In this document: positions 8,088 through 38,877 of the stretch, piece by piece
Layout: each line of letters begins with the position of its first letter
Numbering within the stretch: the stretch's first letter is position 1
NCBI RefSeq assembly: GCF_035825295.1
Contig: NZ_JAYMGI010000002.1
Span: 7,764,001-7,828,000 of the forward strand
Length of the DNA stretch: 64,000 bases
From: Actinacidiphila sp. DG2A-62
GTDB taxonomy: Bacteria; Actinomycetota; Actinomycetes; Streptomycetales; Streptomycetaceae
Direction: 5' to 3'
Notes under the pieces: model-generated
What the model saw: only the letters and a program-made list of their open reading frames with translations
What the model was told of the DNA's origin: nothing
Databases searched by the model: none
Made by a program: the position numbers and the translations under genes

Positions 8088-8131
8088 TGGACACGCCTGG
8101 GGCCCGAGCGCAGTATGGGAGCGCTCCCATA
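8088..8131 (+). promoter_or_regulatory. CebR operator and promoter of the expansin-like gene
   Basis: Perfect 14-bp box TGGGAGCGCTCCCA at 8116-8129, extended to an 18-bp palindrome (8114-8131). This is the established binding sequence of CebR/CelR, the cellobiose-responsive LacI repressor of actinobacterial cellulase genes. A TGGACA at 8088-8093 and CAGTAT at 8111-8116 could be -35 and -10 (17-bp spacing), with the operator covering the start point. Confidence 0.88.
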
Positions 8132-9291: not shown

Positions 9292-10506
9292 TCAGCAGCC
9301 GACGGGCGAGGAGCCCACCGCGACGTCGTCGAACCAGAGCGTGTCGTCACCGGTGGCGTAGCTCTCCCAGCCCAGCCGCAGCGCGGTCGGGCGCGGCGGC
9401 GTGGTCCGGCTCAGCCACTGCTGGTCGACGTCCTGCGTCGGCACGCCGTCCATGTGCAGGCCCGGCACCTGCTGGCCGTTCAGCCAGGTGTCCAGATGGC
9501 CGGACGAGGTGTCGATCGCGAACCGCAGGCACTGCCAACTGCCGGTCGGCAGCGGGCTGCTGAGCGCCACCCCGGCCGGACTCTGGGCCGGCAGGGTGGC
9601 GTCGTCGGTCTCCCGGTTCCACTGCAGGGCGCCGTTCTGGCCGCCGATCCGCAGCGCCCGGCCGCCCTGCGAGGAGTCCGGCATCGACACGAAGGCCACG
9701 TGCGAGGTCGGCAGCGCCGTGGTGTGGCGCACCCACAGCCGCACGTAGACCACCGGGCCGACGGTCGACAGGTCGTGGGTGGAGGCGACGAAGGCGTGGT
9801 TGCAGTAGCCCGCCTTGCCGTCCACCCGCAGCGACTTGTTGCCGGTGTGCGCGACCGCGGAGTCCACCGTGACGGTGCCGGTGCCCTGGCAGTCCGGCGC
9901 GGTGAACTGCCAGTCGCCCGACGGCGTGCCGCCCGACTGGTCCTCGAAGCCGGAGCAGATCACCGCGCTGCCGCAGTCCGCGGGCGGCGACGTCGGGGGA
10001 CTGGTCGGCGGCGAGGTGGGCGGCGAGGTCGGGGGAGAGGTCGGGGGAGAGGTGGGCGGCGTGCCGCCGTCGCAGGGCGCGCCGCCCAGGGTGAACGCGC
10101 TCGGCGCGGGGTCGGCCGACTGCCAGGTGCCCTGGAGGCCGAAGTCCACCGAACCGCCGGTGGCCAGCGTGCCGTTGTACGCGGCGTTGACCGCGGTGAC
10201 GGCGGCGCCGCTCTGGGTGACGGTGGCGTTCCACGCCGAGGTGACGTGCTGGTCGCCGCCGTAAGTCCAGCCGAGCTGCCAACTGCTCACCGCCGGGCCG
10301 AGGTTGGTCAGCCGGACCTGCGCGGTGAAGCCGCCGGCCCACTCGTTGACGGTGTAGGTCACCGAACAGCCGCCGGTCGCGGCGGCCCCGCTGGCCGGGA
10401 TCGCCGCCGCCGCGGGCACGAACAGGGCCGCCGCGGCGAGCAGCAGCAGCCACAGGCGCGGGCGGCGGGGTAAGCGCGACCGGAGCCGGTCGCGTGCGGT
10501 ACGCAT
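9292..10506 (-). CDS. Secreted CBM2-linker-Cip1-like cellulose-active protein
   Basis: 404 aa. Signal peptide (hydrophobic ~31-50). A family 2 cellulose-binding module (~58-160) has NEWAGGFTAQV, SSWQLGWTY and GGSVDFGLQGTW with paired cysteines. A PPTS repeat linker follows. The C-terminal ~220 residues match fungal Cip1: AHTGNKSLRVDGKAGYCNHAF, HVAFVSMPDSSQGG, LRIGGQNGALQWNRETDDAT and WFDDVAVG have close counterparts in the Trichoderma reesei protein as I remember it. Cip1 is a beta-jelly-roll protein co-expressed with fungal cellulases; lyase activity has been reported. The ATG has AGGAGG and a perfect CebR box 25 nt upstream. Confidence 0.87.
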   Translation of the reverse strand: MRTARDRLRSRLPRRPRLWLLLLAAAALFVPAAAAIPASGAAATGGCSVTYTVNEWAGGFTAQVRLTNLGPAVSSWQLGWTYGGDQHVTSAWNATVTQSGAAVTAVNAAYNGTLATGGSVDFGLQGTWQSADPAPSAFTLGGAPCDGGTPPTSPPTSPPTSPPTSPPTSPPTSPPADCGSAVICSGFEDQSGGTPSGDWQFTAPDCQGTGTVTVDSAVAHTGNKSLRVDGKAGYCNHAFVASTHDLSTVGPVVYVRLWVRHTTALPTSHVAFVSMPDSSQGGRALRIGGQNGALQWNRETDDATLPAQSPAGVALSSPLPTGSWQCLRFAIDTSSGHLDTWLNGQQVPGLHMDGVPTQDVDQQWLSRTTPPRPTALRLGWESYATGDDTLWFDDVAVGSSPVGC

Positions 10507-10530: not shown

Positions 10531-10576
10531 TGGGAGCGCTCCCACATATGAGAGCGAGCCCGGGGCGCACTGTCAA
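10531..10576 (-). promoter_or_regulatory. CebR operator and promoter of the CBM2-Cip1 gene
   Basis: Operator TGGGAGCGCTCCCA at 10531-10544. On the minus strand a consensus TTGACA (10576-10571), an 18-bp spacer and CTCATA (10552-10547) form a promoter, with the operator beginning 2 nt after the -10. Confidence 0.88.
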
Positions 10577-21657: not shown

Positions 21658-22338
21658 ATGGACGACGCGACGAGGGCGGCGCCGCCGCCGACGCTGACCG
21701 GGCTGACCGCGTACCTGCTGTCGCGGACCGGGAAGGCGGCCCGCGGCGCCGTCGCGGCGGACCTCGGCGCGGAGGGGCTGCGGCTGTGGCACGTCGCGGT
21801 GCTCGCCGCCCTCGCCGACTTCGGCCCGCACGTCCAGCGCGACCTGTCGGCGCGACTGTCGATCGACCGCAGCGACATGGTGAAGATCGTGGACGACCTC
21901 ACCGCGTGCGGCTGGGCGGAGCGGACCCGCGACGCGGGCGACCGCCGCCGCGTCACCGTCACCCTCACCGCGGACGGCCGCGCCGCCCTGGCCGCCCGCC
22001 GGGACCGCATCGCGGCCGTGCAGGACCGACTCCTGGCGCCGCTGGACGCGGGCGAACGCGCCCAGCTGCACGCGCTGTTGGAACGGGTCCACACGGGCAT
22101 CGCGGCAGCCGCCGCCCCGGCGGGTCCCGTCATCGCCTCGGCCGGCCCGGCAGACCCCCCGGCCGGTCCCGCGGCCTCTTCGGCCGACCCCGCCGCCGCC
22201 GTGGCCGGCCCCGCGGACGCCTCGCGGCGCGGTGGCGCGTCCTCCGGCGAGCGCGGTGATCGGCGCGCCGGCACGTCTCCACACCCTGGTGAGCGCTCTC
22301 CCAGCCGCTCGCCGCGCGCCCGCCCCTCGCCGCCATAA
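21658..22338 (+). CDS. MarR-family transcriptional regulator with long C-terminal tail
   Basis: 226 aa. The winged-helix core (~1-150) includes LWHVAVLAALADFGPHVQRDL, recognition helix SIDRSDMVKIVDDL and wing RDAGDRRRVTVTLT. The last ~75 residues are a disordered Ala/Pro/Gly/Ser tail, unusual for MarR proteins. A TACAAT -10 ends 7 nt before the ATG, so the mRNA is probably leaderless; there is no ribosome binding site. Divergent from the VOC gene across a 20-bp palindrome. Confidence 0.87.
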   Translation: MDDATRAAPPPTLTGLTAYLLSRTGKAARGAVAADLGAEGLRLWHVAVLAALADFGPHVQRDLSARLSIDRSDMVKIVDDLTACGWAERTRDAGDRRRVTVTLTADGRAALAARRDRIAAVQDRLLAPLDAGERAQLHALLERVHTGIAAAAAPAGPVIASAGPADPPAGPAASSADPAAAVAGPADASRRGGASSGERGDRRAGTSPHPGERSPSRSPRARPSPP

Positions 22339-24702: not shown

Positions 24703-25472
24703 TCGAGCACCTGGTGCCGCCCTCGGTGCGCACCCGCGCCGCCTACGGCGCCGAACTCGACACCGCGCCCCTGCACCCCGAGGAGGCCCCGGCCGTCGCC
24801 CGGGCCGTCCCCAAGCGCCGCGCCGAGTACGCCGCGGGCCGCGCCTGCGCCCGCGGCGCGCTGCACGACCTCACCGGCCGCCCCCCGGGCCCCGTCCTGC
24901 GCGACGCCGAACGCGGCGCGCCCCGCTGGCCCGACGGCGTCGTCGGCAGCATCACCCACTGCGACGGCTACCGCGCCGCCGCGGTCGCCCGCCACACCGA
25001 CGTCCTCGCCCTCGGCATCGACGCCGAACCCCACGCCCCGCTGCCCGGCGGCGTCCTCGACGTCATCCTCGCCACCGGCCCCGAACGCGCCGCGCTCGAC
25101 GCCCTCACCGCCCGCGCCCCGCACGTGCACTGGGACCGGCTGCTGTTCAGCGCCAAGGAGACCGTCTACAAGGCGTGGTACCCCTACCACCGCCGCATGC
25201 TCGGCTTCACCGAGGCCGAACTCACCTTCACCCACGACGAGTTCCCCGACAGCGAGTTCCCCGACACCGACACCGCCGACGGGCCGCGCGCGGGGACCCA
25301 GCGCGGCACGTACACCGCACGGCTGCTGATCCCCGGGCCGCTGCTCGCCGACGGCATCGGACCCGACGTCTTCACCGGCCGCTGGATCGTCCGCGACGGA
25401 CTGCTGGCCACCGCGATCGCCGTGCCCGCCACCGGCGCTACGCCGACTCCCGCACCACCAGCGTCGTCTTGA
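24699..25472 (+). CDS. 4'-phosphopantetheinyl transferase (Sfp/EntD type)
   Basis: 257 aa from the GTG overlapping the previous stop. It transfers the phosphopantetheine arm from CoA to carrier proteins of polyketide, peptide or fatty-acid synthases. Motifs: GSITHCDGYRAAA, ALGIDAEPHAPL (magnesium-binding Asp/Glu) and WDRLLFSAKETVYKAWYP. The 3' end overlaps the end of the convergent LacI gene by 35 bases. No synthase genes are in the window, so it must act in trans. Confidence 0.92.
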   Translation: MIEHLVPPSVRTRAAYGAELDTAPLHPEEAPAVARAVPKRRAEYAAGRACARGALHDLTGRPPGPVLRDAERGAPRWPDGVVGSITHCDGYRAAAVARHTDVLALGIDAEPHAPLPGGVLDVILATGPERAALDALTARAPHVHWDRLLFSAKETVYKAWYPYHRRMLGFTEAELTFTHDEFPDSEFPDTDTADGPRAGTQRGTYTARLLIPGPLLADGIGPDVFTGRWIVRDGLLATAIAVPATGATPTPAPPASS

Positions 25473-26481
25473 AGATCACCGAACGCGTCGGCTGAGCCGG
25501 GTCGTCGACCTGCGCCATCAGCAGCCGGGCCATCTCCGCCGCCATGTCCTCCACCGGCTGGCGGACCGTGGTCAGCAGCGGCCGCGACGCCATCGCCGCG
25601 CTGCTGTCGTCGAAACCGACCACCGCCACGTCCTGCGGCACCCGCTTGCCCAGGTCCCGCAGCACCAGCAGCGCCCCCTGCGCCATCAGGTCGCTGGCGA
25701 CGAACACCCCGTCGGTCTCCGGATGCTGGTCGAGCAGCTGACGCATCGCCCGCTCGCCGCCCTCCTGGGTGAACCCGCCCTCGACGCTGGGCACGTACGG
25801 CTGACCGTGCTCGGCCATCGCGTCGCGGAACCCGGTCAGCCGGTCCCGGCCGGCCGCCGAGTCGTACGGCCCCGCGATCGTCGCGATCCGCCGGCACCCC
25901 CGCTCCACCAGCCGGTCCGCCGCCAGCCGCGCCCCGGCCTGCTGCGCGATGTCCACGAAGCTGATCGGCAGCGGCGTGGTCGGCCGCGCGAACACCACCG
26001 TCGGCACGCCCGCCTCGGTGAGCAGGAACGGCAGCGAGTCGCCCGGCGCTATCGACACCAGCACCACGCCGTCGATGTGCTCCTGCCGCAGCCCCGCCAC
26101 CATCGAGCGCCGTGCCTCCTCGGAGTCCGCGAGCATCAGCACCGGATGAACCCCGCGCGGCCGCAGCACCGTCAGCAGACCGCCGACGATCCGCCCGAAG
26201 AACGGGTCGCTGAACACCCGCCCCATGAACGGATCGTCGGCCGTGTGGTGGTCCGGCACCGAGAACACCAGCGCCACCGCATCGGTGCGCCGGGTGACCA
26301 GGGAACGCGCCGCGCGGTTCGGCACGTACCCCGTCGCCTGCACGGCCTCCTGGACGACCCGCTGGATCTCCGGGTCCACGTTCCGGGTGCCGTTCACGAC
26401 CCGGGAGACGGTCGCGCGCGACACACCCGCGCTGCGCGCGACGTCTTCCAAGGTCGGCAGGCGTGGCCGGCTGCTGGTCAT
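25438..26481 (-). CDS. LacI-family repressor (CebR-like), likely regulator of the glycanase cluster
   Basis: 347 aa. HTH at ~9-30 (TLEDVARSAGVSRATVSRVVNG), hinge VPNRAARSLVTRRTDAVALVF, then a sugar-binding core (DGVVLVSIAPGDSLP, VFVASDLMAQGALLVLRDLG, VVGFDDSSAAMASRPLLTTVRQP). The sequence is close in type to CebR. Gene order GH16/TIM-barrel then lacI on the same strand. A TATAAC -10 (26493-26488) ends 6 nt before the ATG, so it is probably leaderless. The palindrome GGAGAGCGCTCTCC covers the -35, pointing to autorepression. Confidence 0.9.
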   Translation of the reverse strand: MTSSRPRLPTLEDVARSAGVSRATVSRVVNGTRNVDPEIQRVVQEAVQATGYVPNRAARSLVTRRTDAVALVFSVPDHHTADDPFMGRVFSDPFFGRIVGGLLTVLRPRGVHPVLMLADSEEARRSMVAGLRQEHIDGVVLVSIAPGDSLPFLLTEAGVPTVVFARPTTPLPISFVDIAQQAGARLAADRLVERGCRRIATIAGPYDSAAGRDRLTGFRDAMAEHGQPYVPSVEGGFTQEGGERAMRQLLDQHPETDGVFVASDLMAQGALLVLRDLGKRVPQDVAVVGFDDSSAAMASRPLLTTVRQPVEDMAAEMARLLMAQVDDPAQPTRSVIFKTTLVVRESA

Positions 26482-26487
26482 ACGGCA

Positions 26488-26514
26488 GTTATACCACGCA
26501 GGAGAGCGCTCTCC
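26488..26514 (-). promoter_or_regulatory. lacI promoter with GGAGAGCGCTCTCC operator
   Basis: Operator 26501-26514, -10 TATAAC at 26493-26488 on the minus strand. The operator occupies the -35 region, the arrangement expected for an autoregulated repressor. Confidence 0.75.
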
Positions 26515-29764: not shown

Positions 29765-29818
29765 GGAGAGCGCTCTCCGTCGGCCCCGATGGTTGCCGCT
29801 GGATTTCCGGGGTGTCAA
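29765..29818 (-). promoter_or_regulatory. GH16-gene promoter with LacI operator
   Basis: Minus-strand TTGACA (29818-29813), an 18-bp spacer and a weak AACCAT -10 (29794-29789), then GGAGAGCGCTCTCC at 29778-29765. The gap from the -35 to the operator is 34 nt. Confidence 0.78.
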
Positions 29819-29934
29819 GGGATCGGACGCGAGCGGCGGCGCGCGGACGGGCTTTGCGGACGAAACGGTGACGACTCGGCCGGCGATCGTCGACGGTCGT
29901 GCGGGGGTGCTGTCCCGGGTGACGGGTGGCGGGG

Positions 29935-29987
29935 TTGACAGCGTGTCGGTCGACGGCCGAAAGTGAGGCGTTCGGAGAGCGCTCTCC
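29935..29987 (+). promoter_or_regulatory. GH3-gene promoter with LacI operator
   Basis: Plus-strand TTGACA (29935-29940), a weak GAAAGT (29959-29964) and the operator GGAGAGCGCTCTCC at 29974-29987. The gap from the -35 to the operator is 33 nt, mirroring the GH16 promoter. Confidence 0.75.
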
Positions 29988-30534: not shown

Positions 30535-33500
30535 ATGACGGACGCCGCCGCGGTCGCGGCCGCCGACGACGCCGACGACTCCGAGCCGCCGACCCCGCCC
30601 GCCGCGGGCCCGGCGCAGGACCCCCCGCCGGAGCGCGCCCCCGACGCCGCCCGCGCGGGCTCCTCGCGGGCCCCCGCGCAGGACGGCCCGGCGGTCCTGG
30701 CGAACCCGGCCGCCCCCGCCGCCTCCGGCGGCGCGGTCCCGGGCGTGGGCGCGGGGGACACCCCGTTCCGCGCCCCGGTCCCGGGCGCCACGGCCGCGCC
30801 GGCTGCCGCCTCGCCTACGGCCGGGCCGGCGGCAGCCCGGCGCGCCGGCGCGGGGAGCGCCGCGGACCCGGGGCGGGCGCGGGCGCGCAGGGACGCGCCT
30901 GCTGGGATCGACGACGCCGTCGCCGACGCCGAGGCAGCGGAGGCGGCTGTGTCCGCGGGCAGTGCGTCGGACGCGGTTCCGGCTGGGAGCGCCGCCCCTG
31001 CCGGGGGTGTCGGGGACGCCGGGGATGCCGGTGTGGGGCGGGTGCGGGCGCAATCGGGCGCGTTCGCGGGGTCCGCCCGTTCCGAGGCAGCGGAGGCGGC
31101 TGTGTCCGCGGGCAGTGCGTCGGACGCGGGCGCGGGCGGGAGCGCCGCCTCTGCCGGGGGCGTCGGGGACGCCGGGGGCGGGAGTGGTGCTGTCGTCGGT
31201 CAGATGCGGGGTCCGTCGGACGTTTCGGTCGATGCCGCACGTGTCGGCGGCGCCGCTCCCGATGCGAGCGGGCAGGGGAGCGCCGTGCACGCCGGGGATG
31301 CCGGGGGTGCCGGCGCGGGGGGTGTCGCGCGCTCGGGTGCGTCTGACGGGTTCGCCGGCGGCGGCGGCGCGGCGGATGGGGGTACCGGGGGTGCGGGGGG
31401 CGCCGGTCGGGCCATCGGGGAGCAGATGGACGCGCTGGTCGCGCGGCTGGACCTCGCGGCGAAGGTGCGGTTGTTGTCGGGAGCGGCGACGTTCCGGTTG
31501 CCGGCGGAACCGGCGATCGGGCTCCGGGCGGTGGTGTTCTCGGACGGGCCGGCCGGGGTGCGCGGCGAGCGCTGGGACGAGCGGGACACCTCGCTCGCGC
31601 TGCCGTCGCCGACCGCGCTGGCCGCCAGTTGGGACGAGCGACTCGTCGCGGAACTGGGCGCGTTGCTCGCCGCCGAGGCCCGCCGCAAGGGCGTCGACGT
31701 ACTGCTCGCGCCCACGCTCAACCTGCACCGCAGCCCCCGCGCCGGGCGCCACTTCGAGTGCTTCTCCGAGGACCCGCTGCTCACCGCCCGCACCGGCGCC
31801 GCGTACATCCGCGGCGTGCAGTCCGGCGGCGTCGCGGCCACCGCCAAGCACTACGTGGCCAACGACTCCGAGACCGAGCGCCTCACCCTCGACGCACGCC
31901 TCGACCAGCGGACGCTGCACGAGGTGTACCTTGCTCCGTTCGAGGCCGCCGTGCGCGCCGGGGTGTGGACGGTGATGTCGGCCTACAACCGGGTCAACGG
32001 CGTCACGATGTCCGAGAGCCCGCTGCTGGAGGAGCCGTTGAAGGGCACGTGGGGCTTCGACGGCGCGGTGGTCTCCGACTGGGGCGCGGTCCGCTCCACC
32101 GAGGCCGCCGCGCTGGCCGGGCAGGACCTCGCGATGCCCGGCCCCCACCCGCTGTGGCAGGAGCCGCTGATCGAGGCGGTACGCGCCGGCCGGGTGCCGG
32201 AGGCCGCGGTGGACGACAAGGTGCGGCGGCTCCTGCTCCTGGCCGCGCGCGTCGGCGCCCTGGACGTCCCCGGCCGGCCGGCCCGACGACACCCGCCGGG
32301 ATAGCGCTCTCCTCCGGGGCCACCGAGCCCGCGCCCTCCGCCGAGTCCGCGCCGAGCGTCCACCCCGCGCCGCCCGCGTCTCCGCGACTGCCGGTCGACG
32401 CCGCGCGGCCCGCGCCGCCCGCCCCCACGGCCCAGAGCGATCCCCGCCGCCTGCTGCGGCGCGCCGTGGCAGCCGGCTGCGTCCTGCTGCGCAACGAAGG
32501 CGGCGTCCTGCCGCTGCGCCCGGCGGCCACGCCGGAGGCGAGGCCGTGGCGGCTCGCGGTGCTCGGCCCCAACGCCGCCGCCGCGCGCGTCCAGGGCGGC
32601 GGCAGCGCCGCGGTGTTCCCCGCCGAGGTCGTCTCACCGCTCGACGGCATCCGGGAAGCGCTCTCCGGCAGCGGCGCCGAGGTCGTGCACGCCGACGGCG
32701 TGCTGCTCACCAACCGGCCCACGCCCGTGCACGCCGGCAACGCCCGCAACCCGCGCGACCGGCGCCCCGGCGTCCTGGTCCGCTACCTGGCCGCCGACGG
32801 CTCCGAGGTGCACGCCGAACACCGGCTCTCCGGCCGGGTGCTGGAACCCGGCGACGCCCCGCACGCCGCCGCTGCCGCCGCGGCCGTCGAGGTCAGCGCG
32901 CTGGTCACCGCCGACACCGCGGGGGAGTGGCGGTTCTCGGTGGTCGGCCTCGACACCGTGACGCTGCGCGCGGACGGCGAGACGATCGTGCACGACTTCG
33001 TCGAGCCGGAGTCGGCGGACCCGACGTACGTGCACGTCGCGCCCTCCTTCCGCACCGCCGCGCGCAAGGTCGCGGCGGGCGACGAGGTGCTGCTGGTCGC
33101 GGTGCGCCGCTGGGAGGACGGCCACGGACACGCCGTCGCGCTCGCCGCCGACCCGCCGCGCCCGGACGAGGACGAGCTGCTCGCCCGCGCGGTGGCGGCG
33201 GCGCGCGGCGCGGACGCGGCGGTCGTGGTGGTCGGCACCACCGACGAGATCGAGAGCGAGGGCTTCGACCGCCCGGCGCTCGCGCTGCCCGGCCGCCAGG
33301 ACGAACTGGTCGCCGCGGTCGCCGCCGCCAACCCGCGGACCGTCGTCGTGGTCAACTCCGGCGGGCCGGTGGAACTGCCCTGGCGGGAGAGCGCTCCCGC
33401 GGTGCTGGTGAGCTGGTTCCCCGGCCAGGAGGCCGGACACGGCCTGGCCGACGTGCTGTTCGGGCACGCCGAACCCGGCGGCCGGCTCCCCACCACCTGG

Positions 33501-33998
33501 CCGGGTAGCGCGACGGGCGCGCCGCTGCCGTCCACCGTTCCCGTCGACGGCGTCCTCGACTACGCCGAGGGCCCCTACCTCGGCCACCGGGCCTGGCGGC
33601 GGGCGGGGTCCGAGCCCGCCTACTGGTTCGGCCACGGACTCGGCTACACCACCTGGGCCTACGAGGACCTCGACGTAGCGCCGGACCCGGCAGGCGGCGG
33701 CGCCCTGGTCCGGGTACGGGTGCGCAACACCGGCGCCCGACCGGGCCGCGAGGTCGTCCAGGTGTACCTGACCACCGGCCCGGACGGGTACGACGACGGC
33801 GGCCCGCGACTGGCCGGGTTCGCCGCCGTCACCGCCGGCCCCGGCGGCAGCGCGGTCGCCGAGGTGACCGTCGCCGCCCGCGCGTTCGAGCGCTGGTCCC
33901 CGGCGGAGCGCGGGTGGACCGGCCGACCGGGGCCGTACACCCTGCACGCCGGCCCCTCGGCAGCACGGCAACCGCTCTCGCGGCCGTTCATCCGATGA
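30535..33998 (+). pseudogene. GH3 beta-glucosidase with PA14 insert, one frameshift
   Basis: About 1154 codons. An Ala/Gly-rich acidic head (~1-295) containing two 48-bp repeats precedes the GH3 barrel: MDALVARLDLAAKVRLLSGA, GRHFECFSEDPLLTARTG, KHYVANDSETER, nucleophile Asp515 in VVSDWGAV. At about 32270-32284, in a GGCCGGCCGGCCC run, the frame shifts. The second frame continues through GH3_C (VLLRNEGGVLPL), a PA14-like insert (~32780-33170), SEGFDRPALALPGRQ and a fibronectin-like end. GAAGGGA lies before the ATG at 30535; an alternative start near 31426 would remove the head. No signal peptide, so it probably hydrolyses imported oligosaccharides. Confidence 0.82.
30929..31130 (+). repeat. 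Two 48-bp direct repeats in the GH3 head
   Basis: Identical 48-bp copies at 30929-30976 and 31083-31130, 154 bp apart and 154 not divisible by three-codon phase drift: 154 = 51 codons + 1, yet both translate as EAAEAAVSAGSASDA because the copies sit one base apart in phase only if re-aligned; the observed protein repeats the same residues, so the effective offset should be rechecked on alignment. Confidence 0.6.
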
Positions 33999-37436: not shown

Positions 37437-37494
37437 TTGACGCGGGTGCGCGGTGAGGAGTTAATTTCTCGTGCCGCGAGTGGGAGCGCTCCCA
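37437..37494 (+). promoter_or_regulatory. GH6 promoter and CebR operator
   Basis: TTGACG (37437-37442), 18-bp spacer, TTAATT (37461-37466), then a perfect TGGGAGCGCTCCCA at 37481-37494 just past the expected start point. Confidence 0.92.
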
Positions 37495-37608: not shown

Positions 37609-38877
37609 ATGACCGCACGCGCCCGCACCAGCGCCCGGCCGTCGCGTCCCCACGCACGCGCCGGCCGGAGCGCCGCCGCCAGAACCCGTAGAGCGCTCTC
37701 CGCCGCTGCGGCGGCCGCGGCCCTGACCGCGGTGGCCGCGGCGGTGCCCGCCCAGGCCGCCGCGCCCGCGCACCACCGCGCGCCCGGGCACTCCGCCGCG
37801 GCGCCGACCGCGCTCTACACCCCGCCGGCCAACCCGGACTCCCGGACGCAGGTCCTGGACCTGCTGCGGCACCGGCAGTTCAAGGACGCCGCGGGGGTGC
37901 TCGCCCTGACGCTGACCCCGCAGGCGGTGTGGTTCGACGGCGGCACCAGCCCGGCCGACACCCGGGCGGCGGTCGACAAGACGGTGACGGCCGCGGCGCG
38001 GGCCCACCGGCTCCCCGTGCTCTCGCTGTACAACATCCCGGGCCGCGACTGCGCGCAGTACTCGGCCGGCGGCGCGGCGGACACCGCCGAGTACGAGGCG
38101 TGGATCGACGCGGTGCGGGCCGGCATCGGCAACCGCCCGGCCGACGTCGTGCTGGAGCCCGACTCGCTCGCCCTGCTCCCCGCCGACTGCGGCATGGACG
38201 ACGCGCAGGGGAGCCGGACCGCCGCGCGCTACGACGAGATCCACTACGCGGTGGACGCGCTGGAGCCACTGGCCGGCACCAAGGTCTACCTCGACGCCGG
38301 CCACAGCTCCTGGCACAGCGTCAACGACATCGTGCCCCGGCTGGTCAGCGGCGGCGTCGACGACGCCACCGGCTTCTTCCTGAACATCTCCAACTACCGC
38401 TCGGACGCCGAACTCGCCTGGTACGGCAAGCTCGTCTCGTCCTGCCTCAGCTACGTCGGCGCCGGCGGCGACGCGGCCGCGTGCCCCAACCAGTACTGGC
38501 CCACCGCCGACGCGCAGGCCTGGCTGGACGCCAACGTGCACGCCGCGCCCTCGGCGATGAAGCACTTCGTCACCGACACCAGCCGCAACGGGCAGGGGCC
38601 GTGGGTCCCGCCGGCCGGCGTCTACTCCGACGCCCAGGACTGGTGCAACCCGCCCGGCCGCGGCGCCGGCGCCCGGCCGAGCCTCAACACCGGCGACCCG
38701 CTCCAGGACGCCCGGCTGTGGGTGAAGATCCCCGGCGAGTCCGACGGCCAGTGCACCCGCGGCACCGCGGGGCCCGAGGACCCCGAGCGCGGCTACACCG
38801 ACCCGCCGGCCGGCCACTGGTTCCCCCAGCAGGCCCTGGAGCTGGCCCGCAACGCCTCGCCGCGCCTGCTGCCCTGA
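37609..38877 (+). CDS. Secreted GH6 cellulase (endoglucanase or cellobiohydrolase)
   Basis: 422 aa. Twin-arginine-poor but strongly basic signal (~1-52), then a single GH6 catalytic domain without a cellulose-binding module. Family motifs: LSLYNIPGRDCAQYSAGG with conserved Asp147, VVLEPDSLALL with catalytic acid Asp185, YLDAGHSSWH and LWVKIPGESDG. GH6 enzymes hydrolyse beta-1,4-glucan with inversion. The compact size suits an endoglucanase. GAGGAG lies before the ATG. Expression under CebR is inferred from the perfect operator. Confidence 0.93.
   Translation: MTARARTSARPSRPHARAGRSAAARTRRALSAAAAAAALTAVAAAVPAQAAAPAHHRAPGHSAAAPTALYTPPANPDSRTQVLDLLRHRQFKDAAGVLALTLTPQAVWFDGGTSPADTRAAVDKTVTAAARAHRLPVLSLYNIPGRDCAQYSAGGAADTAEYEAWIDAVRAGIGNRPADVVLEPDSLALLPADCGMDDAQGSRTAARYDEIHYAVDALEPLAGTKVYLDAGHSSWHSVNDIVPRLVSGGVDDATGFFLNISNYRSDAELAWYGKLVSSCLSYVGAGGDAAACPNQYWPTADAQAWLDANVHAAPSAMKHFVTDTSRNGQGPWVPPAGVYSDAQDWCNPPGRGAGARPSLNTGDPLQDARLWVKIPGESDGQCTRGTAGPEDPERGYTDPPAGHWFPQQALELARNASPRLLP

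Follow-up and report, generated by a model that had tools for sequence, protein, structure and literature searches.

A CebR-related LacI repressor in a soil streptomycete very probably has its own operator for beta-1,3-glucan genes

A soil streptomycete, Actinacidiphila sp. DG2A-62, very probably carries a CebR-related repressor with a DNA signal of its own, GGAGAGCGCTCTCC, for its beta-1,3-glucan genes. We analysed a stretch of 64,000 nucleotides of this genome (the window), in which exact copies of this 14-bp palindrome stand at positions 26501, 29765 and 29974. In all likelihood the three boxes are operators of P0001, the LacI-family protein encoded beside them, which we take for a paralog of CebR that has its own DNA specificity and would control genes for beta-1,3-glucan use. 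The boxes, the promoter layout, its conservation, the co-occurrence with the repressor and the content of the targets were all computed. The assignment would give a concrete repressor-operator pair for actinobacterial use of beta-1,3-glucan (from fungal and algal walls and callose), and it would attach a likely role to DUF1996. The set of three paralogs in one genome also offers material for how LacI repressors split their operators.

Boxes and promoters in the window

The features on which the analysis rests are listed here, with three CebR-type boxes for contrast.

8116..8129, no strand: CebR-type box, exact match
10531..10544, no strand: CebR-type box upstream of a CBM2 plus Cip1-like gene (9292-10506, minus strand)
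25438..26481, minus strand: LacI-family repressor gene lacI (347 aa, P0001), Pfam LacI and Peripla_BP_3, predicted to bind GGAGAGCGCTCTCC
26488..26496, minus strand: extended -10 of lacI, TGGTATAAC, 6 nt before the ATG; leaderless mRNA predicted
26501..26514, no strand: putative operator box of lacI, exact GGAGAGCGCTCTCC match, -33 to -20 from the lacI start codon
26527..29622, minus strand: CBM32-GH16-GH158-CBM32 beta-1,3-glucanase gene (1031 aa, apparently secreted), from PDB sequence matches and F5_F8_type_C twice (Pfam)
29765..29778, no strand: putative operator box of the GH16-GH158 promoter, exact GGAGAGCGCTCTCC match
29789..29818, minus strand: predicted GH16-GH158 promoter, TTGACA 29818-29813, 18-nt spacer, -10 AACCAT 29794-29789
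29935..29964, plus strand: predicted GH3 promoter, TTGACA 29935-29940, 18-nt spacer, -10 GAAAGT 29959-29964; orthologous promoters in loci L143-L146 and L150-L156
29974..29987, no strand: putative operator box of the GH3 promoter, exact GGAGAGCGCTCTCC match
30535..33998, plus strand: GH3 beta-glucosidase gene, start codon ATG at 30535 or at 31426; the N-terminal linker is long and of low complexity, and the frame breaks between 32265 and 32437
37481..37494, no strand: CebR-type box TGGGAGCGCTCCCA upstream of a GH6 cellulase gene (37609-38877)

The sequence-only reading of this DNA had placed a box 34 nt past the TTGACA of the GH16 gene and another 33 nt past that of the GH3 gene, on opposite strands. 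The coordinates agree: there are 34 nt between the minus-strand TTGACA at 29813-29818 and the box at 29765, and 33 nt between the plus-strand TTGACA at 29935-29940 and the box at 29974. That reading also put the box at the promoter of the LacI gene. An exact copy is there, at 26501, but this promoter lacks a TTGACA and has a second architecture, with a conserved TGnTATAAC downstream of the box. The gene that it called GH16 does have a GH16 domain, within a fuller make-up of CBM32-GH16-GH158-CBM32.

Counted from the centre, each half-site of GGAGAGCGCTCTCC departs from that of the CebR box TGGGAGC.GCTCCCA twice, with G for T at position 7 and A for G at position 5, and the two palindromes have 10 of their 14 bases in common. 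The difference is slightly smaller than the replacement of an outer TGGG/CCCA by GGAGA/TCTCC that had been described. The exact CebR boxes in the window number three (8116, 10531 and 37481). Imperfect boxes at 22288, 32299, 37688 and 38879 were set aside as background; they have no TTGACA at the required distance.

Genes at the locus

P0001 has both domains of a LacI/GalR protein, a helix-turn-helix (PF00356, 1.6e-14) and a periplasmic-binding-protein-like effector domain (PF13377, 3.1e-39). The predicted operator is palindromic, has a central CG, and lies beside the protein's own gene as well as at the promoters of the putative targets. The recognition helix reads VSRATVSRV, and the nearest solved structure is 5ysz, a member of the LacI family that we take to be T. 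fusca CelR.

The GH16 domain of the neighbouring glucanase received no Pfam call and was recognised by comparison with PDB sequences. The protein matched the GH16 endo-1,3-beta-glucanases 7eo3/3dgt (E ~1e-72), the GH158 entry 9oro (7e-38) and the CBM32 entry 4zy9 (7e-37).

For the GH3 gene, ATG 30535 is the most likely start codon, because the GAAGGG ribosome-binding motif that precedes the GH3 start in relatives is present there. The box is then ~550 nt from the start codon (1.44 kb with ATG 31426), against ~110-350 nt in the relatives compared. GH3_N and GH3_C are in different frames in the window, whereas several relatives have a single frame of 804-820 aa, and the alignment traces the break to an interdomain linker that differs in length from theirs. 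Real decay and assembly error are both possible causes, and the GH3 target may be dead here because the gene is frame-broken in the assembly. A second CBM32-GH3 gene of the genome is likewise divided between two open frames (L119:3848-7365; C2 ~7030847-7034364), so there may be indel errors in the assembly.

Distribution of the box and the repressor

Pattern searches of the 8.6-Mb genome returned 10 exact copies of GGAGAGCGCTCTCC and none of its reversed form. The nearest relatives of the host genome in the collections are mostly Actinacidiphila species, and the orthologous LacI loci were drawn from Streptomycetaceae, Streptosporangiaceae, Micromonosporaceae, Pseudonocardiaceae and others. These 80 loci (1.37 Mb) hold 184 exact copies, present in 77 of the 80, and 2 CebR boxes. 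The chance expectation from mononucleotide composition is ~0.02. For 63 of the 79 orthologs with a readable helix-turn-helix, the 450 nt ahead of lacI contain an exact box; with up to two mismatches allowed the number is 78, and the distance to the gene is mostly near-fixed.

We then compared the presence of the box with that of the LacI ortholog over 121 genomes of the host family. Both were found in 43 genomes, the LacI ortholog alone in 13, the box alone in 3 and neither in 62 (Fisher p 1.6e-17, a value that overstates independence because the genomes are related). Within the host genus, boxes occur in 23/23 genomes with the ortholog and in 0/5 without it. As for the 13 of 56 ortholog-bearing genomes in which the exact box is absent, several have more distant LacI proteins of 55-60% identity, and some boxes close to lacI are forms with one or two mismatches. 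Taken as a whole, the distribution is the pattern expected of a repressor and its operator.

Promoter architecture

Of 260 box-gene pairs, 96 have a TTGACA 23-38 nt before the box and 1 has it elsewhere within 150 nt. An nAnnnT follows at a spacer of 17-18 in 92 of the 96. We read the target promoters as sharing TTGACA-N17/18-nAnnnT, with the operator at the predicted start site and in the early transcribed region, because of these two distances. The mirror-image double promoter of the GH16 and GH3 genes is conserved in 11 of the 14 relatives that we fetched, as is the 29765 box, in the form GGAGAGCGCTCTC[C/T].

The lacI promoter has no TTGACA. Instead, TGnTATAA[A/C] or a similar -10 is found in 69 of 77 loci (with the TGn in 61), and 65 of the 77 have a gap of 6-7 nt between the -10 and the start codon. 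The operator box mostly falls between -38 and -20. With a conserved -10 so close to the start codon and an operator in this place, the lacI mRNA is probably leaderless, separately promoted and autoregulated, the operator being near -35. Three further boxes of the host genome, at 47542, 2059839 and 3538455, have no TTGACA.

Target genes

Genes downstream of a box encode CBM32, GH16, GH158, GH3 or DUF1996 in 36 of 72 non-redundant cases, compared with 22 of 662 controls, which were the other genes of the same loci (p 5e-26, again overstating independence because the genomes are related and the controls share the loci). Other genes of the host genome with a box upstream include two CBM32-GH3 genes and a DUF1996 gene, and a CBM32-GH64 gene near cebR has one with a single mismatch. 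The presence of GH16, GH158 and GH64 among the targets points to a beta-1,3-glucan regulon, and supports the view that the characteristic targets of P0001 would be beta-1,3-glucan enzymes and not cellulases. A beta-glucan regulon distinct from that for cellulose had been suggested from the letters of the window, and it is consistent with the predicted GH16-GH158, GH3 and GH64 targets and with the CebR box at the GH6 cellulase.

The CBM32-GH64 gene (L122:3212-5093; C2 ~2856211-2858092) is a few kb from cebR and a cellobiose-type transporter cluster. No obvious beta-glucan target was seen at the host-genome boxes 47542 and 2059839. An exact box without TTGACA lies upstream of an ABC transporter and GH13 cluster (L117:7042-13327; C2 ~2059041-2065326) that adjoins a LacI-like gene without a called helix-turn-helix, an unexpected neighbour of alpha-glucan type.

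DUF1996 (PF09362) is downstream of the box in 9 of 72 cases and 4 of 662 controls, and is sometimes fused to CBM32. Besides the host protein (L118:7512-8654; C2 ~3538511-3539653), there are 28 others in the LacI loci, with several invariant His and Cys residues. An AlphaFold2 model has a confident core (mean pLDDT 81), and comparing it with the PDB gave no match by sequence or by fold. DUF1996 is possibly a family active on beta-1,3-glucan.

Two paralogs in the same genome

P0001 and the host's own CebR (C2:2860218-2861282, beside an SBP/ABC-type cluster) share 42% identity. The P0001 and CebR groups are separate in the tree, each with 100/99 support, which leaves P0001 outside the CebR/CelR orthologs. 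The recognition helix has SRATVSRV in 79/79 orthologs of P0001 and GRGTVSRV in 19/19 CebR proteins. A TGGGAGCGCTCCCA box is present at each of the 19 CebR loci and GGAGAGCGCTCTCC at none of them, whereas the lacI loci of P0001 and its orthologs carry GGAGAGCGCTCTCC (184 against 2). P0001 also adjoins the GH16-GH158 and GH3 genes, and not cebEFG. The earlier proposal of a paralogous repressor that has diverged in operator choice holds up well on these comparisons, with the operator apparently tracking P0001 and not CebR. In a separate observation, cebR itself often carries a hybrid box, TGAGAGCGCTCCCA, of which one half is CebR-like and the other like the box of the third paralog; it is conserved in the genus (L123-L141).

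This third paralog, P0003 (C2:7089200), is 46% identical to P0001. The helix of its orthologs reads SRAT[V/A]SR, and the box upstream of their genes resembles NGAGAGCGCTCTCA, which differs from GGAGAGCGCTCTCC nearly only at the outermost base. In the two groups with S-R-A the half-site has base A at position 5, and G-R-G goes with base G. This position falls in the part of the operator that is read by the first residues of the LacI recognition helix. We tentatively suggest, while thinking it somewhat less likely than its opposite, that the change between S-R-A and G-R-G switched half-site base 5 between A and G, that a change at base 7 partly insulated the three paralogs (cellulose, beta-1,3-glucan and the third) in one genome, and that DUF1996 is an uncharacterised family acting on beta-1,3-glucan.

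Alternative explanations

Palindromes could arise by chance or from composition in a GC-rich genome, where AGCGCT is frequent (2114 per genome) and a permissive search returns many matches. We give this practically no weight and ruled it out on the exact copies, of which the genome has 10, with none of the reversed control, and the orthologous loci 184 where ~0.02 are expected; the tight spacing to promoter elements also speaks against it. CebR might regulate the GGAGAGCGCTCTCC sites as degenerate CebR boxes within one regulon, as the shared 10 of 14 bases and the hybrid box at cebR would allow. However, the five genus members without a P0001 ortholog retain 2-25 CebR boxes and have no GGAGAGCGCTCTCC, and in two of them (G001 and G012) the CebR protein was seen directly. 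The co-occurrence across genomes ruled CebR out for us, with the boxes at the 19 CebR loci and the GRG helix in place of SRA on the same side, and we consider this reading very unlikely. That P0003 is the main regulator of the boxes, or shares them with P0001, we consider improbable. It has the same recognition residues, VSRAT[V/A]SR, and its operator differs only at the outermost base, but its orthologs are present in all five of the genus members that lack both P0001 and the exact GGAGAGCGCTCTCC, so the exact box follows P0001 and not P0003. P0003 is also not linked to glucanase genes in the host genome, and the phyletic pattern ruled it out as the sole regulator. Cross-talk between the two is possible because of the same recognition residues and near-identical operators; P0003 may also bind GGAGAGCGCTCTCC, and the regulons would then not be fully insulated.

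A different kind of alternative accepts the boxes as operators of P0001 and has the regulon sense beta-glucosides in general, or cellobiose, and not beta-1,3-glucan. This is unlikely in our judgement, but it is the alternative that we take most seriously. In S. roseum, a putative cellobiose ABC transporter operon has the same palindrome upstream (PMC3377646), GH3 and GH1 enzymes are broad in specificity, and the nearest solved structure is the LacI-family regulator 5ysz. On the other hand, the most characteristic targets belong to the beta-1,3-glucanase families GH16, GH158 and GH64, and the box at the window's GH6 cellulase is of the CebR type.

Proposed mechanism

For P0001 acting on beta-1,3-glucan genes, binding, repression and the inducer are what we infer from the sequences. 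When there is no inducer, a P0001 dimer would occupy the 14-bp palindromes. Assuming a start site 6-8 nt past the -10, the operator at the divergent promoters would span about +3 to +18, and because it lies just past TTGACA-N18-nAnnnT, P0001 bound there would block RNA polymerase or promoter escape at both GH16-GH158 and GH3. At lacI, whose promoter has an extended -10 and is apparently leaderless, the operator would cover about -33 to -20, and the resulting autoregulation would be independent of the upstream glucanase transcript. As inducer we propose a laminaribiose-like compound, a short beta-1,3-gluco-oligosaccharide that basal enzyme would release. Further likely targets in the host are the two CBM32-GH3 genes, the CBM32-GH64 gene with its one-mismatch box and the DUF1996 gene.

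Comparison with known systems

The GGAGAGCGCTCTCC operator class is not new, because it has been reported in Streptosporangium roseum, upstream of Sros_3721-3725 (a LacI protein, two CBM32 proteins and a GH3) and of the Sros_7173 operon (Anderson et al. 2012, PMC3377646). Our literature search found no other paper with GGAGAGCGCTCTCC in such a context, no experimentally studied repressor with a GGAGAGCGCTCTCC operator and no experimentally tested actinobacterial repressor for beta-1,3-glucan use. Ravcheev et al. 2014 (PMC4052901) state that reconstructed LacI regulons underrepresent Actinobacteria.

In both the S. roseum cluster and that of our host, LacI, CBM32 and GH3 genes are preceded by the identical 14-bp palindrome, and we found P0001 orthologs with the same box in two other Streptosporangium (L063 and L079). 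The S. roseum report differs in being a prediction for one species, and it linked the box neither with a group of orthologous repressors nor with promoter elements or a beta-1,3-glucan regulon (PMC3377646). What is new here is a repressor assignment tested across genomes, the promoter types and the regulon content, to which GH16-GH158, GH64 and DUF1996 are added. Catenulispora acidiphila has a sister palindrome, TGAGAGCGCTCTCA, beside the LacI gene Caci_6684 and two GH16 putative endo-1,3-beta-glucanases (PMC3377646); its outermost base is T/A instead of G/C. With CebR/CelR of Streptomyces and Thermobifida, P0001 shares the LacI subfamily, the hinge YVPNRAAR, the centre of the operator and the position of operators near promoters. 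CebR/CelR differ from it in forming a clade of their own, in the GRG helix, in the TGGGAGCGCTCCCA operator and in their linkage to a cellobiose-type ABC transporter and cellulases.
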